Below, piece by piece: positions 4,685 to 64,000 of a stretch of DNA of 64,000 nucleotides. A program made the position numbers and the translations under genes. Numbering within the stretch: the stretch's first letter is position 1; every line of letters begins with the position of its first letter. This stretch comes from Melieria omissa (Eukaryota; Arthropoda; Insecta; Diptera; Ulidiidae). The notes beneath the pieces were generated by a model, which saw nothing but the letters and a program-made list of their open reading frames with translations, searched no databases and had not been told where the DNA came from. The DNA is taken from NCBI GenBank assembly GCA_963971225.1, contig OZ020267.1, positions 111,122,163 to 111,186,162 of the forward strand, written 5' to 3'.

Positions 4685-4698
4685 GCATACTTTTCGGT
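4685..4698 (+). promoter_or_regulatory. Isolated Su(Hw)-type motif
   Basis: GCATACTTTTCGGT, a two-mismatch version of GCATACTTTTAGGC. It is the first clear copy in the window. Confidence 0.5.
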
Positions 4699-5002
4699 TG
4701 TAACAAAAGGGTATGCAAACCATTAAAATTGTGACAGAAATGAAAGGGAAAACCTGCAAGTTATTATATATCTACCCGTAAGATTTTGGGTCATACAGAG
4801 CGGTTTTTTAAATATTATTTTTTTTTTAATTTAAATAATCTACAGTTGGATTCTTCAACTGAAGCCTGACACTGTGGATTTAAGGATTACATTAAAAATT
4901 TTACAAAAGTTGTTCTGAAAGCTGCATATTTGTCTGAATAGCAACACACTTAAAGACTGAAAGAAATGCGGTGTTCAGTAAATCAAGCAATTCAAAATTT
5001 CT

Positions 5003-5104
5003 GTAAGCACCAACCGTAATTTCGCTTAAATATTGAGGTCTACTTTTAGGCAACACTCAATTTATGCAAACAGATTTCAACAGCTTTTCAATGACTTTAA
5101 AACA
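5003..5104 (+). repeat. Direct repeat, left copy
   Basis: 102 bp, about 90% identical to 5482-5583. It contains the half-motif TACTTTTAGGCAAC, which is a Su(Hw)-type word lacking its GCA start. The two copies bracket a SINE. Confidence 0.85.
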
Positions 5105-5159
5105 GACTCACCCCAAACAAACCAACTTAAAATACAAACTTTGGGATTCTTCTTCTTCT

Positions 5160-5475
5160 TTTTCTTGACTGGCACGACAGCCCGATTACGAGACTAAGGC
5201 CTAACTACCCGCAACCACCCGTGTTGTGCGTGCGAATGTTTTTACAAGGTTGGAAAGAGACCTAAAGTTTTATGCCGATTCCGAACGGTGAGTTAGGAGC
5301 TTTTTCATAGGCAATCTTGCTCTCAGAAGTTAGCCATTTCTTGCTGAGTGGACAGCCGCCAAAAGAAAAATTGTTGTTTTTCTCCTTTTTTTCGGTGATA
5401 ACGCAACGGAGTATTGAACTCGCGGAGTCTTGACTCGCGGCCCAACGCACTAGCCAGCTGAGCTACGGCGGCTGC
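5160..5475 (-). mobile_element. tRNA-derived SINE, second type, antisense
   Basis: Read on the minus strand, the 5' end (5475 downwards) is GCCGCCGTAGCTCAGCTGG, a tRNA head with a good pol III A box. It is followed by GAGTTCAATACTCC, a B-box-like T-arm. The body includes a GATTCCGAACGGTGAG block related to the first SINE family and ends in a GAA/AAG-rich tail. It lies between the 102-bp direct repeats. Confidence 0.7.
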
Positions 5476-5481
5476 TTTTCA

Positions 5482-5583
5482 GTAAGCGCCAACCATAATT
5501 TCGCTTAAATATTGAGGTCTACTTTTAGGCAACACTCACTTTATGCAGATAGATTTCAACAGCTTTTCAATGACTTGAAAACA
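5482..5583 (+). repeat. Direct repeat, right copy
   Basis: Partner of 5003-5104. Differences are scattered substitutions such as CACCAACCG versus CGCCAACCA. Confidence 0.85.
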
Positions 5584-7250
5584 GTATTTATAAAAGCACA
5601 TAAGGCACATTTTTAGTGTGCTACAATTTAGTTTTACACAACAGCAACTTTGTTGCTATTTTTCTTTTTGTTTTCCAATCACTTCTTCACTTTGTTTGTG
5701 CCTCTGTCGAGCGCAAATTACAAATTCCTAAGCAAACTTCAAATCTAAACTGCCGCTTGTTTTATTCTGTTATCAGATGGCTTTGCCACCTAAAACTATG
5801 CAATATAAAAACAATATATAACAATAGCGTTTGAATAACAGTGAACAGTCTGAAAAAGGAAAATCGTTTCAATGACAATTTGCAAATAAATCTGCACAAT
5901 CGGGCACTGCGCGCAATGTCGACGCGCTCTCACGTTCGCACACGCTTCGTGCTTAACGCCAATGCGATTTCAGTTGTCGTTGGTTCGCGTTTACGTTGCT
6001 ACAAAATCAATCATTCAAATGGCAAACACGTACGCTCGCAACAAAAACAACAACCTACACACTAACAATACAACAATACAACAATGGCACAAACTACACA
6101 ACTACGCCGATTGAAATAAACAGCCTGCAAGAAAACAACAACAACAAACAGCAAAACAACATTGAAAATACTCGCTGAGAAAATGCGAGTAAAAAATGTG
6201 CAAACAGCACAGACATGTTATGCTTTTTAAATGATTTCTCGTTGTTGCTTTCAATGCCACTATTTCTTCACTGTTCTTGTCTTTTCGTTTTCTTCAATCA
6301 CATTAAGACCATTGTTGCTGTTGTCTGTTGGCTGCTGGCAAACTACTCATGTTTGAACAGCGCCCAAGTACGACCGAGTAGCTCAGATTGCAGTGTGGCA
6401 AATTCAATGCAAACAACAACAAACATTCCATGCACATTTGATTGAATAAAATGCAATAACATTTTTCCTCACTTTCAATGTTCTCTTATGGGTTTTTTAT
6501 TTTTCTTCGCTTGTGCCGCGCCGCTTTCTGGCAATTTTGTATTCAATTGAAACGTATCGAATCGAATCGAATGGAATCACTGGCTGAGCATTTCCTTCCT
6601 TTCTTCCTGTTATTGTTGTTGTTGTTTACATTTTCATTTTCATTTGTGTTGTGTATTTGTATGTATGTGTTTGTTTGCTTAGTTTAACACTCTACGCTTC
6701 GTTGATTGGTGAGATGAAGCAGCAGCAATGAATGAATGGTAGAGAAAAGGTTGCGAGTTCGCATGGCATCAGCGAGTTGTGTTAAAATAACGTAGCAGTA
6801 TGCATCAGCAAGCATGTGTGAAGGATTAGTAGTCGATGTCAAGTAGCTTATTGCTGTGTTTACGCGTAGAAGTTTGAAGCCTCTTAAGTGTGAAGAGACA
6901 TATTTATGGGTTAAGGATCAGCGAGTGTTATTTCAAGTTGTGTTGAATGAGTCGATGGAAAACTTAAACATTGAAAAAGTTTTGTTAGAAAAGAACTTAT
7001 GGAACTTAACTTGATAAAAAATGGTGTATATGCCAAAGTTAAGGCTTCTTGCTATCAAACTTTATGATTCCTTATTAAAGGCGGAGCTTACATTTCAAGG
7101 TTTTAATCTCTTATTATAATTTTCTTAGCCTATTTTCAAGCTCTGCGTAACTTAAGTATCTCCAAGTAAAAAGCCAGTTTGCAGTAGTTTATATGTAAAC
7201 TAAAATCATCACAACTTATTAGAAAAATTAATTTGAAATCATTGACATTT
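5584..7250 (+). other. Intronic DNA without recognised elements
   Basis: AT-rich sequence with CAA and GTT runs. Short open frames here show no recognisable protein. No transposon signature seen. Confidence 0.55.
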
Positions 7251-7990
7251 GTTATCACAGATTTTTATCTTTTGAAGCATACTTTAAGGCTAAGCTTAAC
7301 CACATTGTTGGCTGTCAATTACTAGTTGAGCATTCAAATTATGCAACTAACATCTATTTAAATATTTATGAATTTGGTTAATTCGCATCAGTGATACGTG
7401 CATGTTACTTTGGCATACTTTTAGGATGACCTGAACCTCTACCTCAGCTTATATGAAAAGTATTGGATTATGTTGAAATTTGTAATCAATGACATTTGTT
7501 TCTAGAGCTGTTAATGGTGTATTACTTTGGCATACTTTTAGGATGAGCTGAACCTCTACCACAGTTTATAAACAATTTATTGGAGTCATTTGAAATCAAT
7601 GACATTTGTAATCAGACCTTTTTTATGTTATGTAGCATACTTTTAGGCTAAACTTAGCCAACATGTTGGCCAGAATATGTCAAATTGATTATATTAACTC
7701 TTTTATCAATTTATATAAAATTTAGACCAATTCAGACCAATGGCATTTGTTATCAGAAATGTTTATGTTATGTAGCATACTCTTAGGCTGGCTTAGCCAG
7801 AATGTTGGCCAGAATATGTCAAATTGATTTATTCAACGGTTTTATCAGTTTATATAAAATTTATTGGAATGGGTAGTCAAACCATCAATAATCAATTTCA
7901 AACCAATGACATTTGTTATCAGACATGTTTATGTTATATAGCATACTTTTAGGCCAAGCTCAGCCAGAATATGTCAAATTGATTTTATCA
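7251..7990 (+). promoter_or_regulatory. Tandem array with six Su(Hw)-type motifs
   Basis: Degenerate tandem units of about 105-165 bp. Each holds an ATGACATTTG block followed by GCATACTTTTAGG, or CACATTGTTGG/GTTGGCCAGAAT blocks next to it. Motif starts are 7277, 7413, 7530, 7635, 7775 and 7941, all in the same orientation. Spacer sequence has drifted far more than the 13-14 bp core. The resemblance to the Su(Hw) binding word is seen; protein binding is inferred. Confidence 0.75.
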
Positions 7991-9240
7991 ACTGTCAGCT
8001 CAATGATTAAATTATGCATCTAACATCTTTTAGAAACATGTGTGCCAAATAAAATAAACTTGATAGGAAAAAATCGCATTATTTCTAATTCCCCTAAAAC
8101 TATATTAAATTCTCGCACACAGATTTTCAAATTAGATTTACATAAAATTTGTTCACGAAACTTCAATTTTCTGCTACTAAATTTTAAACATTGTTTGCTT
8201 ACGCAAATGAATAAATAAAAAATATTTAGTTAGCCATAGTTTTATTTCGTTTCGTATTCACACTTAATGTCACCTAAAATGATGCAATCAAATTTTTATA
8301 TACACTATAAAACTGCCGCATTTAGTGTAAAAACCATTGCAACTGGTATTTGTGTGGCAAATAAAATTTGGAAAATGTTGGCAAATGTATTGCATACATT
8401 TATGCGCTTAGCCGCACACAATAATAAGCCAAATATTTTTAATTGAATTTCAGATGTCACTGCATGTGTGGATCTCTCTCTCTATATGAGTGTTTGTGTG
8501 CATTTGTGCGCTTTCATGCTCATTGATTTCACACGATACACATTGACTGCAGTCTTTGCTCTATTTTCAAAGCAGCATATGCCGAATTTTTTGCTGTGCT
8601 AGCGCCATGTGGGAGCGTTTCATTTGCCTCTCACTTTCTGCTAGTCTGATGTTTTTCTGCGTACATTTTTTCACCTGAAAAAGCAGCTTTTTTTCAAATT
8701 GTAATTTGTGTTTCTATTTTTACCTGAATTTGTGTTTTCGTTGCAGTATCAAAAAAGCAAATTGTAATTGATAGCCTTGGCGCGTTGGTCAAGTTCAATT
8801 AATTTTTGGCATCAAATTACCAATTCAAGCCGAACACTTTTTCAATATTTTTTAGACACAATTTTTTGCACCCTTGCATCTAATTTGATTAAAAAAATAA
8901 TAATGGAAATGTTAGCGTGAAAACATTTTTGCTTTCTATGCAATTTTACAAATTTTCTACGTATTGGAAAATTATTGAGAAGTACAAAGCAAGTTTTAAA
9001 TTTCAGTTCGTTTGAGTTTAGTTCAATTTTAAATAAAATTTAGTGATAAAATGTAACGTGAGGTAGAATTATTCGATGGAAAAAAAATTCAAAAAATTCC
9101 AGAAAATTCATGGTGGGCAAGTAAAAATTAAACCCATAGTTTAGGTTAGGTTTTTAATGTTACAAAAAAATAGCAGCAGATATAGAATTCGATATTAAAA
9201 GTGAGTAGAACGACTCAGACTTATTCGTAAGTGTTTATAT
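7991..9240 (+). other. Intronic DNA without recognised elements
   Basis: AT-rich; nothing recognised beyond short homopolymer runs. Confidence 0.5.
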
Positions 9241-9644
9241 TGTAACGATGAGGCACTTTGTGCTGTGCTATGCATGAATGAGTTTCCAAGCATACTTTTA
9301 GGCACGCACTTTAGAGTACGGCAAACTTGCTATAATTCCGATATGACAAGGACGGTTCGCGAAGGTGATGAGCTCTGGTAGAACAATCGAAATAGAGAGT
9401 ACAACTGGAATGTCCAAGAAACATCGGCGCGATAAGAAAACAAGTATAAAAAACAGCAGTGTGCAGCGCAGAGGGTCGAGTCTTAGTTAAATAAGAAAAG
9501 TAGTAACAAGTGTAGATACAAGCAAAGTGTAAATCTGTAAATAAAGTGATTGTTGGTTTTTGACTGCGTTTGCGCTGAATAATTGAAGTGGTTTTATTTT
9601 CAAGCACAATCCAAAACGAACTTAGAGAAGTCATTTTCGTAACA
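9241..9644 (+). mobile_element. Solo LTR, sense orientation
   Basis: A 404-bp unit starting TGTAACGATGAGG and ending TTTTCGTAACA (TG...CA ends). It has a TATAAA box at 9445-9450 and an AATAAA signal at 9540-9545, in the order expected for U3-R-U5. Four-base flanks are ATAT/TTAT, an imperfect target duplication. No internal retrotransposon sequence adjoins it, so it is a solo LTR. A Su(Hw)-type word GCATACTTTTAGGC lies at 9290-9303, 50 bp into the LTR. Related copies: 26161-26596, 31680-31836, 55329-55495 and 60343-60929. The short duplication suggests a gypsy-type element, but no coding part is present to prove it. Confidence 0.8.
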
Positions 9645-12600
9645 TTATTAATATTATGTGTTTTCTTCCCTTGAGATCAAATAGCAGACTCTGATAGGGT
9701 AGTGCTAACCAGTATTGGCTTAGCTTCAGAAATATGCAACCAAGATATTTTCTACCCTAAAAAATCATATAAAATCAACTAACTGTGGGCTAAAAACGTG
9801 TAAAATTCCTAAACTGAAACTTTCATTTGATATAATCAGATCTATAGTCCTAAACAGTATCGCTTAAACTACAAAAACGTGCAACCAATACTTGATCAAC
9901 CCTTAAAATCCACAAACGATGCACAAATTAAGCACAAACAAACGTGTAAAATCCCCTAACTGAAATTTCCATTTGATATAATGACAGCTACAGCCATGTA
10001 AAGCTATACAAACATTCGTCTAAAACCATTTGAGTGTTGCTAAAATTCAATAACTGCCGAAAATGTGCTGAGATTATGGTAATTTTTCAATTTTCCCAAT
10101 CACTACACCCACACATAGCGATACACACAACTTGGAGTCAGTCTATAAAATGTTCTTTATATACTCACTGCATGTTCATTTGCCGCTTGACACAGAATGG
10201 AAATCTGCTCAATAAACAAAACCGCAAAAGTATCACGTAAGTGTTGCCATTTTCTAGCATCTTTAATTGAAACCGCACTAACCACACACACACACAGATA
10301 CACTCACGCATGCACACGGAGAAATTGTGAAGCATAGCGCACAAAGGGTCCTGACATGCAGCTGCAGTTGCTATGCTCATTCACACACACATACACAAAT
10401 ACACTTTAAGCTCACAAAGCAACAGACCGGCAGAGAGATAGACAGCTGAGCAAGGGACAGACATAGTCACAGACATGGCCAGCAGCGCAACGTTTTCACG
10501 GCTCTTTTTCAATTAAATTGCCATATAAATACGCACACACACAAATACATCTACATACTTGTATAGCTATGCAGATCTGCACAATAAATAATGTATGCCA
10601 TAAAATAAATCTACGCCAAAAAGTATGCAACAAAAGTTTGCAATTAAAATTCAAATAACTTTTGTTTGTGTGCGCAAAGTGTCTGTCTGGCATTTGTATG
10701 TAAATTTGCTGCTGAAAAGTAGCAGACAGTTTTACAGAATGTGCACACACATACACACAGACTCATATAGAGAAAGAAATATAGACACTTGTGTCCATAC
10801 ATACGTACAATGCAATGGAGTGAGGCCAACGATTTTGGCATTAATTTGTGTACGCGAATGGCAACAAATGCAAACAGAAAAAAGACTGCAAATGATGACA
10901 GTGAAGTGTAGCGAAAGAAATAAAAAAGTAAATCCCTAAATTGTCTGAAAAAGTGTGTTAAACTTGGAGTAGATCGTGAAGAAACGAGAAAACCGAAAGC
11001 CAGCAAAGTGCTTTAGACTCTGATTTAAACGGTTTTTCACTCTTCTACTTTCTTCTTCAGACAACTTTGTCAAAACTTAAAATAATATTATATCATAGCA
11101 TACTTTATGGCGCTATACTCTATGTTCCCACATGCTTAAATGCTTTGCAGTCTTTTGTTATGACAATTGTCAATTGTTGTTGTTGTTGTTTGTGCTTGTC
11201 ACAATAGAAACATAAACAAAAGCAGCAACAAATAAATTACAGCAGCCCAAAATTTCAAGCACCCGGATTTACATGGTAATTAAATATTTTAATGTGCTGT
11301 CTTCTCCTACTCCGCACTTCACTTTACACTCCATGCCACGACCCGCTTCTGTTCGCCGTTCATCGCCATCTGCGCATTTGTACCCACAAAATTTATATTG
11401 TATGCATATTTCCAGCATGAATGTGTGTGTGCGCTCATATGTAAATTGAATTCCTCGTCAGCGCTCGTTGGCAACCCCATCTCACCCACCCAGACTAATA
11501 TCTTCCTTTGTCATAGAGCACCGCCAAGATGACGAATACGCAACAAATTGCGTTCCTCGTGAAATGTTTCAATTGTTGCTGGTCGCATAGAGTGGCCCGC
11601 TTGCCGCACAGCACCGCACCGCAAGAGCGCGTATCAGTTTCGCTACCTTTACCACTTCTTCGTAACCTCGAACCACAGCACACAAAACGTCTAGCAATGC
11701 CTGAAACTTGATGCTCCCTTGCCTCACTGCCACTTTTCTCCATTTCAGTTTCATACATATTCTCACCCCCCACAATCCTCTACAGGCTTACCACAAATTT
11801 ACAGCCGCCGCACTCACATGAAATGTGAACCGCGTTGCGCATATAAAACAATATAGCAACAATGCAATGCTGTAGCAAGGGCGTCAAAAACGCTAGCATA
11901 CATTTGGGGGCGCGCGGAAATTTTAATTTCAATTCCTCGCATATGTGTGTGTGTGTGTGCAGCTTTCTTCACTTCCGCACATGCGGCAAACTGAATTTTG
12001 TATTTTTGTCTGATTGTTTGTGTGTGTGTGTATTTCTGTGTGGATGGGTGTTGCCAATGTGAAAGGTGATGATTAGTCAAAATGATAAATGCCAGCGAAT
12101 TAACAGCGATATGGAGAAACGCAACAAAACAAGATAGCAACCGAGAATGTGTACCCTTTTCCAATGTAATGCGGGCTTGTGTAATAAATTTTGCCACCTA
12201 CAATCACTGCTTCGAATGTGTGGCTCATTATTAATAACCTCAAGTGTGGCATACTTTCGGGCGCTTGCCATATTCAGTGCCAAAGATATATTTTTTTGAA
12301 ATTTTTACTACGATACTTTTGTTCAAAATTGTTGTTCTGAAGCCCGGATGACCTTTTTGCTACTCGTGAGTAGCAGCGATGCTGACAAAGCAGCGTCGTT
12401 CCGAGCGTTGCTTCCGTGTCGTTTCAGATTTCATGCGAGCAACACTTATTACGATCGTTTGTTGAGCGTTTGTTCGTCCTTTTTCTTGCACACTGAGTAT
12501 TTTTTATGAATTATATGAAATCTTACCAACGTTAGCGCTTTGACACAGATACATATTTCGAAATCTTGCTACGCATGAAATATTGTAAAGATTTTTTGTT

Positions 12601-12770
12601 TTTAAATTAATATATTAAAACTTATTAATTGAGACATCAATTTTGTTTGTGCTTTCTACGCATTCATTGCCAAATTGCTTGGTTGTGTTGGTGAGCTTAA
12701 TAATTTCTTTTCAAATATTTATTTCGAAAGAATCACTATAAAATATTACTCCAAAACAAAATCCTTAAAA
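9645..12770 (+). other. Intronic DNA with isolated motifs
   Basis: Contains an imperfect tandem duplication (9794-9845 with 9945-9996, sharing GTGTAAAAT and TTTGATATAAT blocks). It also has Su(Hw)-type words at 11098 (GCATACTTTATGGC) and 12249 (GCATACTTTCGGGC), and AC/TG tracts near 10284 and 11946. No gene recognised. Confidence 0.6.
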
Positions 12771-12774
12771 TTTT

Positions 12775-12935
12775 ACTTACTTACTTAACTGGCCATAAAA
12801 ACCCGTTATCGGGTTACGGCCTGCCGCAAAACTTCTCTCCAAGCGCCTCTGCTTTGCGCGCGTCTTCTCCAGTTGGTCACACCAAGACATACCAGGGCCT
12901 CATCAACTTGGTCCTTCCACCGAACACTAATTGTT
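12775..12935 (-). mobile_element. LINE 3'-end fragment, antisense
   Basis: TTACTTACTTAACTGGC followed by a CCCGTTATCGGGTTACGGC block. It is paralogous to 18095-18345, where the antisense strand encodes a recognisable LINE ORF2 C-terminus. Short and heavily decayed. Confidence 0.55.
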
Positions 12936-14430
12936 AGCGGTCATTAAAATTCCGCATTTTCAGTGAACATTTTGTGATGAACAATAAATCATTGGAGATT
13001 TAAATATTCACCAAAGAGATACAATTATCTTTTAATTTTTTACTGTCACAAAAAATAAATTGAAAGCTAAAGCTTTCAAAGCTCTAAAACCACATTAACT
13101 TTGTTAAGCCTGGCTCGCAATGGACAATAAGTATGAATGCACAAAGGATACGCAAAATGAAAATTAAATTAGGAAAATGACTTTAACTGCTTGCAATCGC
13201 CCACGTTTCAGAATTGTCTAAGCAAAAATATTGAGTATGAATATGTTTAAGATAAAATAACAACAACTCTGCAGCAGCACAACAGCTGAAAGTCCAAATA
13301 AATAGAATAACATTCACACAAAACTGCTGAAACGTGCTGTCCGCTATGCCCCAGCGGTAAGGCGACAAATTTATGCGTTTGCCCTTAACTCAACGGGGGA
13401 CGCAAATAGTCGCCAAAGCATTGCACGAAGTGGCAAATGCTTGTTGTCAGTTCCCCAAATCTATGCGGCTTTGACCTCTCAAAGTGCGCTCAAGTCCCGC
13501 ATGGCTTTGTACATTTCTATTGCAAATGAAAAAAAGCCAAATAAATAAAATTGCGCACAAACTTCAAATTGACTTTGATTTGTGTTTCGAACGAAAAAAA
13601 CTGAAAGAGAAAATATGTAACTGAAATTATTATTGCAGCAGTATCGCAATGCTGCCTTGCAATGTTGAAACAATTTTCAATTTTAAGATATTCGACAGCT
13701 GGCTCGGATGGCGCTTAGCCACAAACTGGCCATAATTTATCACGTTTTTCGTCTGTCGCTTATTAATTTGGAAAATACTGCAATATGCCGAATTGTGGCG
13801 CCTTTTATGGACAAGTGATTTCGTCAAGTTTTTTTGTGACATTATCAAAGCGAGAACGAAAACTTTGAGATTGAAGAGTGAGAGATTTTCATTGCTGCTA
13901 GTGTTGTATCTTGCGGCAGGAAGTGTGCTTTTCTGCGTCTTTTTCATCTCATTGTATGTTCATTCCATCTTCAAGATGTCTGCTTCTCATTGCAATGCCG
14001 TTTTGGCCACATTTATCTGCCAACTATGCATGGTACGGCGGTCAGAATGCCGCTTTGATACGGCCACAAGCCGCAAGCCTTTCCATAATTTACTCCGCCT
14101 CAAGTTGCTGCCAAGTCGATTGTAAGGGCGAACCTTAGTTTTGTTACAACTTGCAATGCTTTGCGTTGTAATTTTACGTTGTTATTCTGTAAAATTTTTA
14201 AACAAATTTAATAAAGCAAATTAATCAGAAAAAGTTGTTTCTTAAAACTATTTAGAAATATTTTATTTAAAAAAAAAATACTCCGAAAATTTCTTTCACA
14301 AAAAATTCCTACAAATTTTGCAATGCAACAACTTTATTTGGAAAATATATATTTGGCGTTCTTTATTCTAAAAGCAGTTAAGAAAAATTAAGTCAAAAAT
14401 AACTCTAACAAATTTTATTTTTAAAATTAA
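12936..14430 (+). other. Intronic DNA without recognised elements
   Basis: Overlapping open frames of 60-110 codons occur on both strands near 13.5-14.1 kb, but none resembles a known protein. Confidence 0.5.
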
Positions 14431-14559
14431 CCCTTAAATGCATGGGGTAATTATTTTCGAATCAATCTAGAGCAAGCACAAACATGATTTAAATTGATTC
14501 AACAAATTTACGAAGGATTTAGGAACTGTACCATATATGGTACTCCATGCATTTCAGGG
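14431..14559. mobile_element. piggyBac-like MITE, 129 bp
   Basis: Terminal inverted repeats CCCTTAAATGCATGG and (reverse complement of the right end) CCCTGAAATGCATGG match at 14 of 15 positions. Both ends are flanked by TTAA (14427-14430 and 14560-14563). CCC-starting ends with a TTAA target are the piggyBac hallmark. Too short to encode a transposase. Confidence 0.85.
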
Positions 14560-14569
14560 TTAAAAAACA

Positions 14570-16030
14570 ACACCAGAATACTTGTCGAGAAAATTTATTC
14601 CGAAAGTATATACTACGAACTTTTTCAAACCCGAAAGCAGTGGGACAAAAACATTACTTTAAACATAAACTCCGAAAAAAATGTAATGCAAACATTTTAT
14701 TAAAAAAAACTCCGAAAACCAGAATACTTCTCTAGAAAATTTAATTCCGAGAGTATATACTACGAATTTTTGGAAACCCGAAAGCAGTGGGACAAAAAAA
14801 AACTTTAAAAATTAACTCCGAAAAAATTTCATTCAAACATCTTATTAAAAAAAAATCCGAACAAATTGTTTCAAAAGATCTCCTTAACAAATTTTTTTGG
14901 AAACTATATATGTACTACGATTATTTTTAATTCGAAAGCAGTAGAGCAAAGATTTTATTTACAAAAAACTCCGAAAAATTTCATTCAAATTTTCACTTCC
15001 AAAATACTACTTAAAAACATTATTCGAAATAAATATATCACAGACCTTTTTATCCGAAAGCAGTAGTGCAAAGAATTTACCTGAAAAACTTTAACTCAAA
15101 AATTTAATTTTGAAATAAGTTTTCAAAAAAATTTATTTGGAAATTTTTTAATCCCAACGCAGTAGGGCAAAGTATTTACTTAAAAAAAACTCCGAAAAAT
15201 TGTGATTCAAAAATTAAAAATTCTAAAATATCTACTGTAAAAAATTTATTCGGAAGTATATATTTTGATTTTTTTTTTTTAATCCGAAAGCAGTACGGCA
15301 ACGGTTTTAATTAACCAGAACTCCGAAAAATTGTATTTCAAAATATAAAAAAAAGATGTCGAAAAAACATAAAATAGTACTAAAAAATATATTCGAAAAG
15401 CAGTAGGGCAAAGATTTTACTTAAAACAAACTCCGAAAAATTTTTATTAAAAAATTTCAACTTCTAAAATATTATGTACTTTAAAAATTTATTCGGAAGT
15501 ATATATTTGAGTTTTTTCTTGTAATCCGAAAGCAGTAAGGCAATGGTTTTAATTAACCAGAACTCCGAAAAGTTGTATTTCAGAATTATATTAAAAAAAG
15601 ATGTCCAAACAACACTTAGAAAATAGTACTAAAAATATATATTCGGAAAGCAGTAGGGCAAAGATTTAAAACAAACTCCGAAAAATTGTAATCCGAAATT
15701 TTTTTTTAAAAGATTATTTCCGAAAATATGTTGCAAAAGATAGTATTCCGAAAAATTACTTCGAAAGTGCTACTTTAAGGACTTAATTAGGAAAAATCTA
15801 CTCTAAACTTTTTATACTGAAAGCAAACGAGAACTCAGTCTAAAAAAAACTGGTTTTGAATTTTTTGAATGATTTTTTCTAAAGAAGTTTTCTGAAAATA
15901 TGAGGCCGAAAATAGATTTTCGAAAAATTACTTTAAAATTACTAGATACTCTAAGAATTTTATTAGGGGAAAAAATTCTCTAATTTTTTTATACCGAAAG
16001 CAAACAAAGACTCAAACAGTCTTCCACAAA
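14570..16030 (+). repeat. Degenerate tandem array with CCGAAAGCAGT core
   Basis: About eleven units of roughly 110-170 bp, each with an (A)TCCGAAAGCAGTAGGGCAA word and an ACTCCGAAAAATT block. Cores lie near 14631, 14777, 14932, 15053, 15152, 15283, 15392, 15523, 15642, 15817 and 15993. In the middle, alternate units resemble each other more, giving a 240-250 bp higher-order period. The flanks are extremely AT-rich. Function unknown. Confidence 0.85.
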
Positions 16031-16229
16031 AAATGAGAAATGCCATACAATTTAATTTTCTCAAAACAATTTACCATATTAAGACTACTCCGAAAAGTTT
16101 ACTTAGTTTGCAAATTGTATCCCTTTTTGCACACTCATCTCCGCTACTGTGCTTTACTGCTGACTCTTCTATTTTCTCAACCTTGCGAAGCATTAAATTC
16201 AATTAAATGTCTCCGTTTTAAATGCTGCA

Positions 16230-16243
16230 GCATACTTTTGGGC
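16230..16243 (+). promoter_or_regulatory. Isolated Su(Hw)-type motif
   Basis: GCATACTTTTGGGC followed by ACA, a strong match to the consensus, just after the tandem array. Confidence 0.7.
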
Positions 16244-17610: not shown

Positions 17611-17659
17611 AAAAATTACTTTTAAAATTTCACATCAAAACCTACGCCACAAAAAATAA

Positions 17660-50277: not shown

Positions 50278-50288
50278 ATATAGTTGCT

Positions 50289-50677: not shown

Positions 50678-50688
50678 ATATAGTTGCT

Positions 50689-52282: not shown

Positions 52283-52471
52283 TGGTAAATCCACCTTTCA
52301 TGTTGTCCCATGGCCTTCGAATTGCATATCGGATCTTTTACTGTCAAATTGTTTAATCTAATCCATGGTTCGGTTCCACAAAAGTGTACATCCAAACATC
52401 TTCTTAACTATAATTAGACTGCTAACTTCATTTTTTTTTGTTCCATGGAAACTAACTCACATCAAGGCAGA

Positions 52472-52622
52472 TGTTAGGTTATGTTAGGTTCGGATAGATT
52501 AGAAACATATGAGAATGTTTCTTGTGAATAGCGATAGAAGTAGAGGAGTGTCTAACCAGTTTCAACAGAGAATCGAACCTGATGCATGCGGTGCGAAAAT
52601 CCAACGCCAGACCGACTATTTG
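52472..52622 (-). mobile_element. Short SINE relic, antisense
   Basis: A GTTAGGTTATGTTAGGTT tail (reverse of an AACCT tail) lies next to a reversed head: AATAGCGATAGAAGTAGAGG, then AGAATCGAACCTGATGC (B box). The body between is deleted. Confidence 0.6.
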
Positions 52623-54028: not shown

Positions 54029-54032
54029 TTAA

Positions 54033-54504
54033 CCCTTTGGCTGCAGGTTTTTACTGGGGAAAGTTCCATAAGAAATTTTTTAATTTTAATACTCGGACTC
54101 TGTTTTTTTTTTAGTGTTTTTCTATGAGAGTGACCACATCGTCGTGGCTGTAATAATAACTTGAACATAAACTTTTCACGCATAACGAAAATTTGAATAT
54201 TTTTTCATTTACTTCAGCCAAAATTAAAAAAAAAAAGTTTCTAAATTGACAAAAAAAAACCGTCAAATTAAAAAGTTCTCCAATTTTGTCTGCTTCTTCC
54301 TCCTTTACTATGTCAAAATATTTAATTAAAAAAACGTGTATACTTCTCTTCTTTAAACTTAAATATTTAGTTTATTAATTTCGTATTTTTCCTAAAACTT
54401 CAAACTATTCTTAAGACCAACAAAAAATTTATTCTTGAAACCACAGAAGATTCAGACGTCCACAAAAAAGCAATGTGCCATATGGAAACAAAATAGCGAA
54501 AGGG
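54033..54504. mobile_element. piggyBac-like MITE, 472 bp
   Basis: The ends CCCTTTGGCTGCAGG and (reverse complement) CCCTTTCGCTATTTTG are flanked by TTAA on both sides (54029-54032, 54505-54508). Its right 170 bp match 38159-38328 at about 90%. No transposase frame. Confidence 0.85.
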
Positions 54505-54508
54505 TTAA

Positions 54509-55328
54509 AATTATCATTAAAACCTGATTTTTGGTCTAACATGATTCCTCATGTTCAATCATGAAATTAAATTTCAACTGAAACGTTTCCCCTTTTACCT
54601 TCAACTACCAAGAAGGTTTTAAACTTTCCATACTAAACTTCATTCCTTGCAAATTCAAATTTCTGGCTCAGTGAATCCCCTTGAGTGGGCACCACACGTG
54701 CTTCCCTAAGTTTGTTTTCTATTGTTATTTTATTTATTTTTATATTTTCTTCAATTACTGCAGTTATTGAAGTTATTTTTTTTCTACAGATTCGTCAAAG
54801 CAAACAAAAGGCTTTTGTGCTCAGTTGCCAATACTGAGACAAAATTTTTATTAAAAAACGTATTCGAAGTATTTTTTAGGCGCTGAAATTGGAAATGTTG
54901 CTATAACAAATCAAAAATTAATGAAAATATGAATTTTCAAATTGAACTGGAAACTTGTGAAATTTCAGACCTGACACAGAGTGACCATTTGTTGAGTTGA
55001 ACTTCTGAAAAAAGTGAAGTCTTGCAGATACAAAATTTATAGATTACCCACTGTTGACTTGAGTTCAAGAATTTACTGTCTCAATTTTGAAGGAATAAAT
55101 TTTTGAAATTTTTTTATTCGATTTTTTTTAATTTACACTGAACACACATTTGTCCGTCCACATTTTGATGCGTTCAGACATTCATACAAAATGTGTATTT
55201 GCGAGTATAATAATGTCTGTTTAATAATCTGTCTTATATTTTGCTTCAACATTGTACAATTTCTACAAATCATTTTCAACAATTTTTGACTTTGTTCGAT
55301 TTGTATTGAAACCACATTTGTAAATACT
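54509..55328 (+). other. Intronic DNA without recognised elements
   Basis: AT-rich, nothing recognised. Confidence 0.4.
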
Positions 55329-55495
55329 GTTACGAAAATTCCAAGTTCGTTTTGATTGTGTTTGAAAATAAAACAACTTCAACTATTCAGCGCAAAACGC
55401 AGTCAGAAACTAACAATCACTTTATTTACAGAATTACACTTTGCTTGTATCTAGACTTGTTACCACTTTGGTTATTCAACACAGTGCCTTATCGT
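55329..55495 (-). mobile_element. LTR fragment, antisense
   Basis: Matches the start of the antisense LTR copies (TGTTACGAAAATTCC ... CACTTTATTTACAGAATTAC ... CAACACAGTG) and then stops. The half with the TATA box and Su(Hw)-type word is absent. Confidence 0.8.
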
Positions 55496-56131
55496 TTCAG
55501 TACGTTCACATCTCAATGTCTTAAAACTCTCATACATAACTTTTATAGTTATGCAGCTATTAGTCTCAAAATTGCCTGATTTATATTTAAGTAAATGACA
55601 ACCATAAAATAGTTTTTTCAAAATACATTTTTGATATTAAAATAATAAAAATAAATAAAGAAAATATTTAAGAGCTCAAAATTGGTTCAAATTCCTCCCT
55701 CCAAGTTGTCTTTTCATAGCTTTGACGCCACTTTCTTGCCACTTTTTCTGCTCCAATGGTCACTCTAACGTCATAGAGTCATACAAAAAATACAAAATCA
55801 ACAACAGCAATCAAAACAAACGCAACCGTGCGCAATATTTTCTTTACATTTCGTGATTTTTTGCATATCTTTTAAATAAACAGTGCCGCATTGTTTTCAT
55901 ATGTAGGAAGGAAGTTGCGTGGATATTTCGCGAATTGTACTCTCACATTCATTTTGCAGTGGGATACAATTCAAACAATCAACAATTTAACACATACAAA
56001 CATAGCATATGTGCCCATGCGTGTGTGTGTGTGTGCTCTTGTGTTGGTGTTGGTAATTTTTTTGTGGCGCCGTTTACCGACGTGTACACTTCCTTTGGCG
56101 GCGCCCCGTGGCATGTGACAAAGCAGCAAAG

Positions 56132-56133
<2 letters not shown>

Positions 56134-56162
<29 letters not shown>
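56134..56162 (+). repeat. AC microsatellite
   Basis: Uninterrupted AC run of 29 bp. Confidence 0.95.
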
Positions 56163-56166
<4 letters not shown>

Positions 56167-56617
56167 GCACTGATGCGGCAGCAGCAAAAAAACAAACAAT
56201 TTTTGCCGCAAAACGTAAAGCAACGTAATACGCGCTTTGGCACGAAAGAACGTAAAGCAAAAACGGGGTTTTTGTTGTTGTTATTGTTGTTGTTGCTGCA
56301 ACAATGAAAAGTGCAATAGCAACAACAACAACAACAGCAATCTCGAAATGGCAAAGCCGCAACGCGCATTGCACTTTAATAACATAAAAGCGCAGCTGCC
56401 GGTTGAGCGCGTGAGAGAGTCTCTCTATTTGCCTGTGCGTGCTTGCATTTGTGTGTGTGTACGTAGGTTTTTTTTTCTGTTTGTGTTGCATTAAGCCTTT
56501 CAATACGGTGCGACACATACAATGCGATTGCTTGGTTAGCGCATTTACTCGGCTATGGTGCACAATGCTCTGCTGCTTTGATTGCTGCGCCACTTTATAT
56601 TTTCTATTTGACATTGG

Positions 56618-56640
56618 CACACACACACACACACACACAC
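56618..56640 (+). repeat. AC microsatellite
   Basis: Uninterrupted AC run of 23 bp. Confidence 0.95.
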
Positions 56641-57233
56641 GTATACATATAGGTACATGTTTAAGTTTTTGTATGCGTTGTTAATTTGTTTAGGGGCTCG
56701 ACTGCACAGCAAAGCTTGTTTGTGTTTGCTTTGACGATGTTTTCGTTCGTCTTTCATAGGTCGATACGCTTCGATAGGGTCTTCTGGCAGTGAAAATACA
56801 CACAAAAGAGCACTAGAAAAGTGAGCAAAATGAAAGAGAAAATATTGAAAAGAAAACATATAAAGTATCCACAAGATTTAGTGGTCGTTTTTGTGTGCCC
56901 AGTTTGCAGTTAGCCAACAGTTTGCTACATAAAATAAAAACTTATCGAGTTGCAGTCGATCTCAACCATTTCATTAATGATTTATTTGCTGAAAAATTTA
57001 TTTTCATTTCCTGTTCTTTGGGTTATTACTAACCGAAACCTCGCAAGCATTGCTCGAACTGAACATCCTAAACGAAACTTATTGGTTTTTGATAAATCAA
57101 TAGTTAGTTCCATTCCCTGTCGAACAGCATTGAAATATCAATTGTCGTCGTCTTCAAAGTTGCAGCTTACATCTACTTACTTCACTTCTCTGCGTTGCTG
57201 TCTACAAATTTTCCATATGCCACACCGCCGAAC

Positions 57234-57247
57234 GCCCAAAAATATGC
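57234..57247 (-). promoter_or_regulatory. Su(Hw)-type motif beside the Lar exon
   Basis: GCCCAAAAATATGC, two mismatches from the core, ending 65 bp before the Ig1 exon. It is the only copy between 48.6 and 60.8 kb. Confidence 0.6.
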
Positions 57248-57312
57248 TTCTAAATTTTAACTCTTTTCAAAATCATACTAAATTCTCTTGTATCACTTTT
57301 TGTCTTCTGCAG

Positions 57313-57444
57313 ATCCACCGGAGATCATCAAGAAGCCGCAAAATCAGGGCGTACGTGTGGGAGGCGTGGCCAGCTTTTACTGTGCAGCACGCGGTGATCC
57401 GCCGCCATCGATAGTTTGGCGCAAGAATGCCAAAAAAGTATCAG
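57313..57444 (+). CDS. Lar: Lar internal exon, first half of Ig domain 1
   Basis: This 132-bp exon encodes the N-terminal half of the first extracellular Ig domain of the receptor protein tyrosine phosphatase Lar. Lar is a cell-surface adhesion receptor used in axon guidance and synapse growth. The frame reads PPEIIKKPQNQG, then an FYCAARGDPPP block with the first Ig cysteine, then the IVWRK tryptophan motif. This is nearly identical to Drosophila Lar as I recall it. The acceptor is a pyrimidine tract ending CTTCTGCAG at 57312. The donor is TCAG/GTGAGT at 57444/57445. The exon starts and ends in phase 1; the leading AT completes a split codon, probably His. The upstream exon with the signal peptide is not in the window. 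Similar Ig domains occur in paralogous type IIa phosphatases, but the match is to Lar. Confidence 0.95.
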
Positions 57445-57544
57445 GTGAGTGCAGTTTTAAGCCAAACATTTGGCTACAATTGCCAACTTTTATCGCATAC
57501 TAAATGGTTTCTGTTTTTTTGTTGTTGTTTTTTCTTCAACACAG
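57445..57544 (+). other. Lar: Short Lar intron splitting Ig1
   Basis: A 100-bp phase-1 intron with a GTGAGT donor and a pyrimidine-rich acceptor ending ACACAG. It is tiny beside its neighbours, which exceed 57 kb and 6.2 kb. Confidence 0.93.
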
Positions 57545-57706
57545 GCACACAATCGCGCTACACGGTGCTGGAGCAGCCCGGCGGCGTTTCCATATTACGT
57601 ATCGAACCAGTGCGTGCTGGCCGTGACGATGCGCCCTACGAGTGCGTAGCCGAGAACGGTGTGGGCGATGCAGTTTCCGCTGATGCAACACTAACCGTCT
57701 ATGAAG
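57545..57706 (+). CDS. Lar: Lar internal exon, second half of Ig domain 1
   Basis: This 162-bp exon completes the first Ig domain of Lar. It reads TQSRYTVLEQPGG, then SILRIEPVRAGRDDAPYEC with the second Ig cysteine in the usual D-x-A-x-Y-x-C form, then VAENGVGDAVSADATLTVYEG. The acceptor is TTCAACACAG at 57544 and the donor is GAAG/GTGAGT at 57706/57707. Phase is 1 on both sides, so this exon and the previous one are symmetric and join in frame across a split Gly codon. No stop, frameshift or missing cysteine is seen. The following exon (start of Ig2) is not found before 64000, so the next intron exceeds 6.2 kb. Confidence 0.95.
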
Positions 57707-59340
57707 GTGAGTCCTGAACAAAAACAACACAACTAACATATATTTTATTACATATAGAAAAAAGAGTGCACGAAGCACTTAGGGAAATTTCATATGAAAC
57801 TATAAACTTTCAGTTAAGGTTGTCGACTCAAGTGCAGAGCAGAAGGGGAGGGAGTGCGGCTACGCAGTTAGGGAGATATGGGCTGCTGGTGTTATCCAGG
57901 CATGAAGCACTGTGTAGCTTAAAATTACCCGACTAAATGTAAACAAACTTCGTGCATTGATTTTAAATTAAAACTTTCACCTCTCTTCGTCTCCCTCGCC
58001 CTCTCTCTCTATGGCTGCCATACAGTAAAAAAAAAAAACAATTTACATTAACTTTAGACAGGCAAACACACGCACACATATGGACGTGGATACGGCAAAT
58101 GTAAATATTTGTGTGCTATGCACGCATGTGTATGTGTATGTGTGTGTGTATATATGTGTGCTGTGTGCACATTAGTGGCGCACTAAAGGGAGATGCGGTT
58201 CCCAGCCGGTTGTCAGCAGTGCTCCCGCTTTTCGCCTGCCAACAGCGCAATGTTGCCATACATACTCGCATGTGTACAGATATATTTCTGTGTGTGCGTA
58301 TGTGTGTATGTTTGTATTTGTGTGCTTACTTGCCAGCACTTGATTTACTTTATTTATACTTATTTTAAAAGTAAAGGATAAAGTTTTCGGTTACCAAAAG
58401 CCTAATCAACTTACGTCGTTACGGTTGAAACTTTCAAGTGGGACACGTCCGTGTGCGGGCAAAGCGGCTGCATGTGTTGTGCTGCCGCGACATGAGTTGG
58501 ACAAGTGTGAAAGCGCAATGTTGGGATGTGCGGGGGAGCAGGGTCGACCCTTATAATCGAGCATTTGGTATAATAAACCAGATTTACGAGTGGGTGTTAA
58601 TTGCTGGGTATAGTTTTGAGTACGAAACTTTGAGAGAATCAGTGAGCGCCAAGCAGCAACAACAACAACAACAAAAATACAAATACAAATAACAAAAATC
58701 AAAATTAAAACAAGCAACAAAAACTCTAAATCATGTAAATCGAAGTACAAAAACCTTAAAACAAATTTCAACTGTGCAGCATTTGCGAGGAAACATTAGA
58801 ACGCAGAAAAAATTTGTTGAAAATCAAAAAAAAAAGTTAAACAAATTCGAAGCAAAAAATTTAAGTGAATTGCAAACATACTGTAAAATCGAAGTTTGTT
58901 CAATTAAAATTTACCATTAAAATTGCAATGAAAAGTTAAACGCACATTGGAGCTTGTGTACTCATTGCTTTTCTCTCTTTTTCACACACACTTTGTGGTT
59001 TCTATCATTATCATTGTTGTTGTTTTGCGTTGTGTATGTTTTCATTTGCTTTTTCTCTGTCCTGTTTTTATTGTAGTTGTTGTTGTGCTTAAATGAAAAG
59101 TTAAATAACACTTTGAAAGTCATCGTGTGTCGTTTGGTGTGATGCGAAAGCGGTTTCACGTTGTGTCGAGTTGAGAAAGTTTGACTAATTTCTGATATTG
59201 TTTGTTTATTGTTTAGATTTGTGGTTTTAGCTAATCGGCAATAAGTTTTATTGAGCTAATGTAAATATTTGAGGCAAATTTTATTTAAAGAAATTTTTTG
59301 TTCGTTTGAGTTGGCTTAGCGAAGCTTGCAATATGGTCGA
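57707..59340 (+). other. Intronic DNA just after Ig1
   Basis: TG-rich stretches at about 58120-58160 and 58290-58325, and a CAA run near 58656. No exon or element recognised. Confidence 0.5.
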
Positions 59341-59542
59341 TCTAACGAGGCGGGGATTGTCTTTGAGGCATAAAAAGTAATAGAAAACAAATATTCTTGT
59401 CATTCAAGTTCTATTCAAAGGTTAGCCTGCAGTTTTTTTTTAGTATTTTCACTACTCTTTTCTTCGTTACTTGGCGGTTATTAAATTGTGATAACCCAAA
59501 ATATGAAGTCACGAAAATTTTGTGACCTACTCTTTATGTGAA

Positions 59543-59654
59543 TAAATATATAGTCCTGAACACGTCACACAGTATACCCTACTGTACCAACCGGGAATAG
59601 TGGTATCAAAACGACGCTAATTGGATGATGGAACATCGCCACTTGAACCAACCA
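59543..59654 (+). mobile_element. SINE, second subtype, with target duplication
   Basis: 112 bp containing TAGTGGTATCAAAACGACGC and a CCACTTGAACCAACCAA tail. It is flanked by a perfect 14-bp duplication ACTCTTTATGTGAA (59529-59542 and 59655-59668). Confidence 0.88.
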
Positions 59655-60342
59655 ACTCTTTATGTGAAAGTGTCTTATCAGATGTGGTTTCTTCTTACAC
59701 TCACAAACTTGAGACACTGATCGCCTTTAAGCCATAGAAAAAACTCATTCAACTTCTATTCAAAAGGAAGCCTACGGTTCTTTTAGTTTTTTCACTGTTC
59801 TTTTCTTTGTTAATTGGTGGCTATCAAATTGTGAAAATTCAAATTTTAAAGTCACTAAATTTTTGTGACCCTGTTTTAAAGTCACAAAAATTTTGTGACC
59901 CTGTTTATCAAATTGTGAAAATTAAAAAAGTCAAAGTCAAAAGTCAAAAAAATTAAAAAAAAGTCACTAAAAGTTTGTGACCCTGTTTTAAAGTCACTAA
60001 AATTTTGTGACCCTGTATCTCTTCATATGTAACTTCTCCTTACTCTTATAGCCTTTGAGTCATAAGGAAGAGAAAAAAAAATATTCTGATCATTCAAAAT
60101 CTATTCAAAAGCAAGCCTAGAGTTCTTTTAGTATCTTCACTGTTTTTTGTTTCTTTGGTAATTAACAGTTATCAAATTGTGGAAAGTCAAACTTTAAAGT
60201 GGCTAAATCTATGTAACCCTGTTTAAAAGTATCTCTTCAGATGTGGTCTCTCCTTATACTCAAATAATTGAAGCACAGATCGTCTCTAAGCCATGAAAGG
60301 AGTAAAACTAAATAATTTAACTTAACTTTTCTTCATTAGTAT

Positions 60343-60929
60343 TGTTACGAAAATGACTTCTTTAAGTTCGTTTCTGGATTGTGCTTGAAAAAAAAATCAA
60401 CTTCAATTATTCAGCGCAAACCGCAATCAGAAACCAACAATCACTTTATTTACAGATTTACACTTTGCTTGTCTTTACATTACTTCTATTGCACTATCTT
60501 CTTGGATAACTAAATTCTACCAGGTGGATTTAGTCATACTACTAACCAGGTTTAGTTTTCGGTGAGCATGTGGTATCAAAACGGCGTCGATGCGCTAATT
60601 GTGACTTGCAGGGGGACAACTGTGAGTCAGCCACTTCAACCAACCAACGCAACTACGATTGCATGTTTCCCCTTTGCGGGCTCAAATTAGATTCGGCCCT
60701 CTGCACTGCACACTGCTGCCTTTTATACTTGTCTGGTTATCGCGCCGACTGTTCTAGCACATTCCAATTGGACAATGCTCGATCACTCTCGCACAGCCCA
60801 TCACCTTCGCGAACCATCCTTGCCATATCGGAATTATAGCAAGTTTTCCGTACTCTAAAGTGCGTGCCTAAAAGTATGCCCGTAAAAGCATTCATGCATA
60901 GCACAGCAATAGAGTGCCCCATTTTTACA
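60343..60929 (-). mobile_element. Solo LTR, antisense, containing a SINE
   Basis: A copy of the 9241-9644 family in reverse, from TGTTACGAAAATGAC to CCATTTTTACA, with a perfect 4-bp duplication GTAT on both sides (60339-60342 and 60930-60933). It keeps TATAAAAGGCAGCAGTG on the minus strand and a Su(Hw)-type word at 60866-60879. Its extra length is explained by the SINE at 60494-60650. Confidence 0.88.
60494..60650 (+). mobile_element. SINE inside the LTR
   Basis: 157 bp with GTGGTATCAAAACGGCGTCG and a CCACTTCAACCAACCAACG tail. The LTR sequence ACTTCTATTGCA before it and ACTACGATTGCA after it form an aged target duplication (2-3 mismatches). Confidence 0.8.
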
Positions 60930-61016
60930 GTATTAATGATTATCAAATTTTGAAGACCCAATCCCAGTCCTTTTCTAGAAGTATCACCTCAGATGTGGTT
61001 TCTCTTTACTCTCAAA

Positions 61017-61411
61017 GGTTAGGTTAGGTTGCGGTGGCTGCCTCTATAAGAGACACACTCGGAGGCCTGAAAGAACCATTGTGATACCACATATTTCACC
61101 CGTTTTTGAACTGTGTATGCAACACTGTTTTGCCAACATATGTTACAGCACACATTTCAAGCGGATGGGGAAAGGGGGGTGACCTACAGTTTAACGCCGA
61201 ATCCGAACGGCGATTGGCAGTTTTTCGTTCACACTTGGAGGTTTTGTCATTGCCTGCCAAGAGCGCACTTGTGCGATTCTTGTAATTCTCATTCCCTTCA
61301 TGTGGATAGCGATAGAAGTAGATGAGTTGTTTACCAGCCCGAGCCAGGAATCGAACCTGGAGCCTTTGGCATGAGAAGCCAGCGCGCTACCCGCTTGACT
61401 ATCGAGGCCGG
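61017..61411 (-). mobile_element. tRNA-derived SINE, full length, antisense
   Basis: 395 bp. On the minus strand it starts with an intact tRNA-like head (GCCGGCCTCGATAGTCAAGC then GGGTAGCGCGCTGG, A box) and the B box GGTTCGATTCC. It then has the family body (ATCCACATGAAGGGAATG, ATTCGGCGTTAAACTGTAGG, GTGGTATCACAATGG) and an (AACCT)n tail. It is flanked by CTCAAA (61011-61016, 61412-61417). Best reference copy for this family here. Confidence 0.93.
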
Positions 61412-64000
61412 CTCAAATAATCACAACCATTTCATATGATTGCAACTAAAACTATGCAACATTAAATTACTTTAAAGTGAGCTTTAATAACTGAAAATTG
61501 AACATGGCAACCATTAACAAGAAAACATTTTAATTACTAACCGCTGACAGTTGAAAGAGAAATGACTGCCTGCTGCTGACTTATGGCTTGCAATCGCACT
61601 GCAAATCGTTTTATTGAAACAACCAATATGCCCTCAAATTCTTTGATGTGCATATAGCTTACACGCAAAAATGTCTGTGGTGGCGCTAAAATTTTACAAT
61701 GATAACTCGTGCGAATAATTTGCGTTTTCCGCAGACATTAAGAAGTATTTTAGCGCCACACACCAACACCAACACACACAGACACATCAAATTATTCGCA
61801 ATGCAAATTGCCAGCTTGAGCCATTACAGGAATGCACAACAAGCAACGGCAGAAGACAATGCAAACGCTAATCAGCGTTTCGTTCACTTCAGCACTCATT
61901 TCGAACACTTACACAACTCCTTTCCTGACACTATTAGCTTTGTTACCACAACAACTAATGTCTAAACCACTTTGAATATTTTACACACACACACACAGAC
62001 ACAAACATCTAATGATAGTTTTGTCAGTGGGAAATAGTTTGGTGCATTCTTTGCGGCCACCAACGGGGCGTATGAGTAATTTTCCTGCTGTATTCACGCC
62101 GCATACAAAACATTACCCAGTCACCTGCTTTGGTGTTAACATCATTTTTACCCCAACCAACAATGCAATAAAAATATACAATAAAAACAACAACAACAGC
62201 ACTAACAACTAGCAAACATTCTTGAACATGCTACCGCCACAGCGACGCGTTTATTCGGTACCCGCCCAAAAAACAGCCAAAACTTATAATTTTCTCCTCC
62301 ACACCACCGCCAACCACACGCAGCACACACTGGAAACATGTTATTTGTTGCCGCTTGTTTGTGGCATACTTTTAGGTGCTGTTTGCTGTCAGCCGCCTAG
62401 TCATAAAGTATCATAAATTGAATAAGCGATGTGTGAAACAATTTTATGGTGTTGGCAGTGTTTGGTGATTTGTTTTGTTGTAGTTGTTTCTAGTTATTCT
62501 AGTTTTATGTGACTGAGTGGCAGTGCAAAGAGGTGTGAGAAGTGAAGATGGGAGAATGTACAGGATGCCAGACAGCATAATTACAGTGCTATTAGTTGCT
62601 ATTAGCCGGTTAGATTTCTCTACAAGGCAGTTGAAAATAATTAGTTTGTATGGTTGTAATAGCATTGTTGTTGTTTTGTTTTTTGTTTTGTAGTAGTTGC
62701 ACGTTGGAATTATGGGCAATTGAAAAATTGTGCGGCCATAATTAGGCGTGGTTTTTAGAGGAAACTTTTTAATAATGTAATTAACATTGGCTGGGAAACG
62801 AAAGGGAAGTGTAGCGTGCTGGTAGTTTTGGGTAATAATTGTAGTAATTACTTGAATGTGGGAAAACACATTTTTTCTTCGAGTAGAGCGCAATTACACC
62901 CATACAAATTTTTTTTATAACTCAATTTTAAGCACCTGATTGAGTTGCTCAAAGTCTTAAAGCCGCCCAGTAAAATGTTCTCACATACTCGTATGACAAA
63001 TTTGCCGCATACTTTTAGGCACAAAGGCAGCGAGTACTTTTAAATTGAAAATCTGCTGCGTGTGCCCGCAATAAATCTTGGTACAAAAAGTAGCAACTTT
63101 ATTAAAGTTTAGCAAGAACGCTTTACCACCTGCTTCTGGTGCTATCCATCTCTCTCGCTCTTTACATTCCACTCTCTTTTTGTTTGCTACCAAGAAGAAC
63201 CACACTCTGCCTGCTCTTCCTTCGCCACATCAATCCATACCAAATGCAATGCAAAACATTTCGAAATTCCATTTTGGATGCACTCACTCTTCTGCTTCTT
63301 GCGCCGCTGCTCACTCTCATCTTTTTACTTCGCTTCAACTTGTAGAACTGCCTGCTCGCTGCAGTGTTGTTGGTGCTATGCACACTCACGTCTAAGTTTA
63401 CGTGAAAGCATTTTTAATCAAAATTCCCAACAGTACAGGTAAAATAGCACAAGATCAGGCGGCTGGCTGCAGCGCATCGACGCACCAACACACACTCGCA
63501 CTCGCAGTCGCATTGCACGCACACACAATTCGCCGCTGCCGACAGTGGCAACAACTCGCAGCCGCCGCATGTGGTGCTGGAAGGTGGCATACGATTTGGC
63601 TGTAACGCTGAACGTGTTGCGGGCATAGCCGTGTAGAGGGTTTGGCGACGGCGGCAATCGCATTAGCGATATATTGCAACACCTGCAAATAACGTGACTC
63701 GCAACTGTGCAAACTAATCCCAATGCCAAATCAGCGCAAAAAATTCACACGTGAATAAAAAGAAGAAGCACAAATAAAACAAAGAATAAAATCAGAAAAT
63801 GAAAATTCAAAGTGTCACACAAGCAGTGCATACTTTTGGGCTAAAAAGCAGCAGTTAGATAAAGCAGTGTTGTGGGGAAAAAACGAGAGCAAATGTCGTC
63901 ACTTTTGCAAGGGGTTCGTGGCACTAAATGTTTTACATATTGTTGTTGTTGTTACGAATATTGTTGTTATTGTTTCTATTATTGTTATTTGTTGTTTTAC
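61412..64000. other. Intronic DNA at the right end
   Basis: Su(Hw)-type words GCATACTTTTAGGT (62364), GCATACTTTTAGGC (63007) and GCATACTTTTGGGC (63828), all plus-oriented. GC-richer sequence at 63440-63700 has open frames on both strands but no recognised protein. Confidence 0.55.

Follow-up and report, generated by a model that had tools for sequence, protein, structure and literature searches.

What has gathered so many copies of one long DNA word around a single neuronal gene, and which protein should be expected to read them, is the question raised by a stretch of 64,000 nucleotides from the fly Melieria omissa (Diptera, Ulidiidae; assembly GCA_963971225.1, contig OZ020267.1, positions 111,122,163 to 111,186,162), which is termed the window in the following and which harbors two exons of the gene Lar. 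The word resembles the binding site of Su(Hw), a founding insulator protein, and the role of the scattered single Su(Hw) sites of Drosophila melanogaster has been hard to show. The answer regarded here as probable is that the words are predicted sites of this fly's own Su(Hw) ortholog, and that they constitute a homotypic cluster at Lar, which would be kept by selection and would serve as an architectural or repressive domain. More than one hundred long sites at one neuronal gene would provide a place where the number of sites can be tested against partitioning, contact with the nuclear lamina, pairing, and repression. The cluster also lets the birth and upkeep of sites be followed side by side in single sites, tandem arrays, and long terminal repeats (LTRs).

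Throughout, a site is defined as a match on either strand to the 14-base core GCATACTTTTRGGC with at most two mismatches. On both strands of the window the core has 13, 50, and 78 matches at no more than 0, 1, and 2 mismatches, respectively, while the 16-mer GCATACTTTTRGGCRC has 6, 26, 58, and 90 at no more than 0, 1, 2, and 3. Thirty dinucleotide shuffles of the window yielded no core match at 0 or 1 mismatch and a mean of 0.73 at up to two (maximum 3); at the latter limit the reversed core word has no match in the window, and 200 letter-permuted words reach a mean of 0.56 and a maximum of 9. The excess is confined to zero to three mismatches, since at exactly four the window holds 66 matches against 84 in the shuffles. 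Chance and base composition as the source of the words were ruled out by the shuffles together with the matrix of published sites described below. The original prediction, made from the letters of the window, had spoken of about 65 words with roughly 0.4 expected by chance, and both figures were of the right size. The 78 sites extend over 2844..63841, two of them (2844 and 3118) lying to the left of position 4685, where the prediction had placed the beginning. The cluster runs past both window ends, and the 30 kb on either side add 32 and 33 sites, which brings the cluster to no fewer than 143 sites in a minimum of 124 kb, neither end having been reached.

The assignment of the words to the Su(Hw) type is well supported by sequence. 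They agree with the in vivo consensus reported for D. melanogaster, TGT(TA)GC(AC)TACTTTT(GAC)GG(CG)(GT)(CG), in which one bracket missing in print has been restored (PMC2374998). An independent 20-base matrix that avoids the word of the prediction was constructed from 15 of the 20 rows in Table 1 of the same paper, after omission of the three starred rows, of one duplicate, and of a row that lacks a site, and a threshold of at least 15 bits was adopted, which all 15 source sites pass. At this threshold 65 places were found in the window and 51 in the adjoining 60 kb, in comparison with a mean of 0.7 (maximum 2) in ten shuffles, none for the reversed matrix, and 7 in the 200 kb of twenty loci sampled elsewhere on the same chromosome (2.2 per 64 kb). 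The scan against shuffled sequence, which had been proposed as a check, and the published consensus accordingly both uphold the identification of the word that the prediction had made.

The composition of the sites points in the same direction. The central module TGCATACTT and the T run are present in the window sites, the T before GC being weak (27 of 78), and the downstream GC-rich module GG(C/G)(G/T)(C/G) is represented by a strong GGC at positions 11-13, followed by a weaker (A/G) and C. From the upstream AT-rich module only a weak preference for T at -7, -4, and -2 is seen among the 78 sites. It has been reported that the core is read by zinc fingers (ZF) 6-9, the downstream module by ZF2-4, and the upstream module by ZF10-12 (PMC5825117); a strong core and downstream part with a weak upstream part is in keeping with this three-module reading. 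Beyond about -7 to +16 the base profile is nearly flat, the flanks being almost uninformative past about 23 bases, as would be the case for a protein footprint rather than for a repeat. In D. melanogaster a strong motif match predicts Su(Hw) occupancy (PMC2374998), and we infer that the words in M. omissa may likewise be bound.

The gene concerned is Lar, as had been predicted. Two plus-strand exons, the splice ends of which were judged by eye, encode the first part (57313..57444) and the second part (57545..57706) of immunoglobulin (Ig) domain 1, and 94 of 98 residues are identical to the PDB chain 3pxj_A, named tyrosine-protein phosphatase Lar. A piece of Lar Ig2 was searched for in the 124 kb and not found elsewhere there, and a long intron on the right-hand side is thereby suggested. 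Neither the transcription start nor any earlier exon of Lar was located, hence the part of the cluster left of the Ig1 exons may be either intron or upstream DNA.

How the words came to be so numerous is revealed in part by their surroundings. The 78 window sites fall into 61 flank families, and as 17 of them are extra family members, about 60 independent places are indicated; in the 124 kb, the 143 sites fall into 97 flank families, of which 82 have a single member, while the remaining 61 sites are distributed among 15 families of repeats or duplicates. A single repeat or satellite family was consequently rejected as the source of the word, since the flanks of those 82 sites are unlike those of any other site. 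The mostly unshared flanks also speak against the case that the prediction had named as its own refutation, an alternative family with this word as its consensus. Besides single sites, the sources comprise tandem arrays that are unrelated to one another, local duplicates of greater age, and word-bearing solo LTRs. The last of these are copies of a dispersed element about 410 bp long, which has TG...CA ends and TATA-like and AATAAA-like stretches and is flanked at three of seven copies by 4-bp direct repeats of the type ATAN (by eye); judged from these features it is read as a solo LTR, and its one word lies about 55 bases from the 5' start.

In duplicated pieces the word outlasts its flanks, for which the evidence is good but not final. 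The 124 kb were compared with themselves, and pieces of 60 bp or more with an identity of no more than 95% were considered. Of the 178 directed comparisons, which are not independent of one another and whose BLAST seeds may be the word itself, 163 show the word in the partner piece with two mismatches or fewer, against 74 expected at the decay rate of the flanks. The mean identity in these pieces is 0.94 for the word and 0.81 for the flanks, and in seven of nine aligned families, which were chosen for having the word, no 14-column flank stretch is as conserved as the word. The words are apparently kept by selection, which we infer to be the cause of their retention.

Of the explanations that differ from this, the one that survives best, unlikely as it is, regards the words as bystanders of sequence turnover in long non-coding DNA, in which tandem duplication and LTR insertion would have copied a few chance or ancestral words that are maybe bound, with no effect on Lar. 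Such an origin would suit the tandem arrays, as five of the seven loci with a period above 100 bp in the 124 kb carry the word, the nine LTR loci in the same 124 kb, seven of which have it, and the 61 sites that belong to families of two or more; however, it would leave 82 sites with flanks of their own, and the arrays share this word in spite of their different sequences. The mismatch spectrum, heaped at 0-3 without excess at exactly four, and the retention of the word above the rate of flank decay, in a test that is biased, argue against it as well. Of the LTR copies, all seven that span the word region keep the word at no more than one mismatch, the other two loci being partial and devoid of that region.

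It is improbable, to a greater degree, that the word is read in this fly by another zinc-finger protein, for instance a paralog of Su(Hw). Three entries of Teleopsis dalmanni are named protein suppressor of hairy wing-like, which could reflect gene duplication or partial gene models, and the occurrence of several such entries means that duplication of the gene may occur in flies. Nevertheless, in its core and downstream parts the word is the same as the Su(Hw) site of D. melanogaster, and the listed orthologs of many schizophoran flies have conserved central fingers. Su(Hw) is reported to be older than insects (PMC5094011), and Anastrepha, Rhagoletis, Bactrocera, Lucilia, and Glossina are among the many flies with a listed ortholog. 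Nine sequences were aligned (Drosophila, Anastrepha, Rhagoletis, Bactrocera, Eurosta, Lucilia, Musca, Glossina, and Episyrphus, the Musca entry being named only C2H2 protein), in which the helix positions -1, 2, 3, and 6 of fingers 4, 6, and 8 are identical in all nine, while fingers 2, 3, 5, 7, 9, and 10 change at some of these recognition positions.

The density at Lar was also compared with that of the genome. Exact GCATACTTTTNGGC occurs at 3749 + 3670 = 7419 places in 490,334,835 bases, and its reversed word at 6; exact GCATACTTTTAGGCAC occurs at 764 places and its reversed word at none. For GCATACTTTTNGGC this corresponds to 0.97 per 64 kb genome-wide, against 14 in the window and 32 in the 124 kb. 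Part of the genome-wide total is LTR-borne, as was the case for two of eight loci retrieved for the word. The background for sites was obtained from twenty 10-kb loci, all on contig C1 and hand-picked from 80 random coordinates, which contain 8 sites in 200 kb (2.6 per 64 kb) and one match to the reversed word. The density that the prediction had called exceptional is about 30 times that of these twenty loci. When the 9-mers present at least 12 times in the 124 kb were ranked by enrichment over the 200 kb of sampled loci, with simple ones filtered out and close repeats merged, the top 18 all came from the Su(Hw)-type word (at least 7.8-fold), and the first unrelated 9-mer followed at 6.5-fold.

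Local groups of exact places were examined in the first 100 of the listing (C1 0.28-8.80 Mb). The richest 64 kb has 12, ten of which lie in 4.4 kb, and after merging of places less than 1 kb apart the highest number is 6, in comparison with a mean maximum of 4 (highest 7) in a uniform simulation; the window has 14 exact places, and 10 after merging. A second cluster was sought at C1 47.7 Mb, chosen for four exact 16-mers within 64 kb, and rejected, because the 10 kb examined there has only one word, which belongs to an LTR copy, and lacks any matrix match of at least 15 bits. The idea offered with the prediction as an alternative, a lineage-wide expansion that makes the word dense across the genome with Lar merely a sample, can draw on the 7419 exact places against 6 for the reversed word, but is rendered very improbable by the density genome-wide and in the C1 loci just given, by the lone word in 10 kb at C1 47.7 Mb, and by the 60 bound sites in 3 Mb of D. 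melanogaster (PMC2374998), which are of the same order as the background density.

The favored interpretation is that of predicted Su(Hw) sites kept by selection, with an architectural and repressive domain over Lar, the functional steps of which would be as follows. The cluster would have grown as single sites were gained separately, as pieces containing sites were duplicated nearby, and, in a small part, as word-bearing LTRs inserted, and selection would retain the word as the sequence around it decays. Su(Hw) in many copies, either by itself or together with CP190 and Mod(mdg4), would occupy the DNA of the cluster, and this occupancy might partition the enhancers and promoters of Lar and lower the contact of Lar with the nuclear lamina. 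Su(Hw) might further keep Lar off where silence is due, in the way in which it represses neuronal genes in the ovary of D. melanogaster (PMC6441048). In lamina domains, Su(Hw) was reported to bind several sites and to oppose lamina contact in proportion to their density (PMC2991331); these domains are similar to the present cluster in having several motif-driven sites in a large domain, and an effect that scales with density would be common to both. The eve boundaries nhomie and homie offer another parallel, as Su(Hw) words take part there in the pairing of distant DNA, and single sites, one in each boundary, support this pairing (PMC13405320). Each of these activities, scaled up to a hundred sites, might be exerted on Lar.

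Compared with the endogenous sites of D. melanogaster (PMC2374998), those at Lar share the long word with its core, T run, and downstream GG(C), and they form similarly sharp islands in unconserved flanks. However, the D. melanogaster sites have been described as isolated, with one match in each of 40 among 41 enriched fragments, whereas 143 words stand here in 124 kb; isolation, which is typical of Su(Hw) sites without defining them, is absent, and the size of the cluster is thus what is new. The gypsy insulator is similar in being a homotypic cluster of Su(Hw) words carried by a retroelement (PMC2374998, PMC5825117). It has 12 sites, mainly with upstream and central modules, in the 5' untranslated region, whereas the words at Lar are longer, extend across more than 100 kb, have flanks that are mostly unique, and occur once in each LTR copy; instead of a tight array in the 5' untranslated region of one retroelement, 97 flank families over 124 kb are found.

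Several points weigh against this interpretation and are gathered here. About 11 kb around the Lar Ig1 exons (49493-60865), between dense stretches, contain one word only, at 57234. The strand order is of little help, since the 25 strand runs against 40 expected (p 0.0004) are mostly due to local duplicates, for which reason a CTCF-like orientation rule was rejected, and with one site per flank family the bias shrinks to 25 runs against 31 (p 0.06). Fingers 1, 11, and 12 vary widely at the recognition positions among flies, and the repression described in PMC6441048 concerns promoter sites, not introns. The sampled background is confined to contig C1. As to retention, besides the dependence among comparisons, the possible seeding by the word, and the choice of word-bearing families, pieces more than 95% identical or shorter than 60 bp were dropped from the test. 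Family B2 has no excess (word 0.857, flank 0.803, the conservation of the word being equaled in 34 of 76 flank windows), and family D plus has a weak one (5 of 76).

A further step, which is put forward tentatively, would be that a Su(Hw) hub the size of a gene exists at Lar, a homotypic array in which sites are about tenfold as numerous as in gypsy, and which arose by repeated separate gain and tandem amplification of long sites and acts by site number. If so, the hub might be a centre of chromosome pairing or anchoring, or a dose-dependent switch by which a neuronal gene is held away from the lamina or kept silent in the germline, and such clusters might mark selected neuronal genes in this fly lineage, word-bearing LTRs being one source of them. 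No such cluster outside Drosophila was found among the literature matches listed, the coverage of which lacks most subscription journals.

Within the window the words are unevenly distributed. Tandem family A has six plus-strand words in about 680 bp (7277..7954), in units partly of about 139 bp, with an identity of 0.914 for the word and 0.596 for the flank. A dense stretch on mixed strands at 23037..30153 holds 25 words, of which 19 are minus-strand and most have unique flanks, and includes the weak local duplicates of family G (26737-27463). Eight plus-strand words at 34228..37811 are partly old duplicates (34619 and 35378; family F), and eight minus-strand words of families B and B2 at 47410..48482 stand where a tandem array of a 305-bp unit, with two words per unit, covers 47727-48502. 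Three more plus-strand words (62364, 63007, and 63828; 62364..63841) lead into the right-hand extension, where a tandem array at 69481-70576 has a 144-bp unit with two words on opposite strands and different flanks. Among the 142 gaps between adjacent sites, 36 measure 100-175 bases and 2 measure 200-250; nucleosome-like spacing is not claimed, as the gaps were not separated from the unit length of the arrays.

The LTR copies in the window comprise a plus-strand copy at 9236..9649 with TG...CA ends and an exact word at 9290-9305, a minus-strand copy at 26191..26592 with an exact core word at 26534-26547, and an interrupted minus-strand copy at 60340..60933 with an exact word at 60864-60879, in addition to two partial copies without the word part (31677..31841 on the plus strand and 55323..55480 on the minus strand). 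Further copies were met at loci L029, L032, and L034, and also at L004 and L008, which had been chosen for having the word, and at L035. No copy with the word region was seen in the twenty sampled C1 loci, where three matches of 54-56 bases occur in L025 and L026. An insertion preference of the LTR for Lar is not claimed, nine loci in 124 kb being too few.

Other repeats of the window are two pentamer arrays, one of about 187 copies of TTTAT at 262-1186 and one of about 64 copies of ACTCT at 20926-21247. A tRNA-like Rfam match of 32.4 bits lies at 61336-61408, and translated stretches of the sequence beside it recur at 50270-50611, so that it is perhaps part of a tRNA-derived short repeat.

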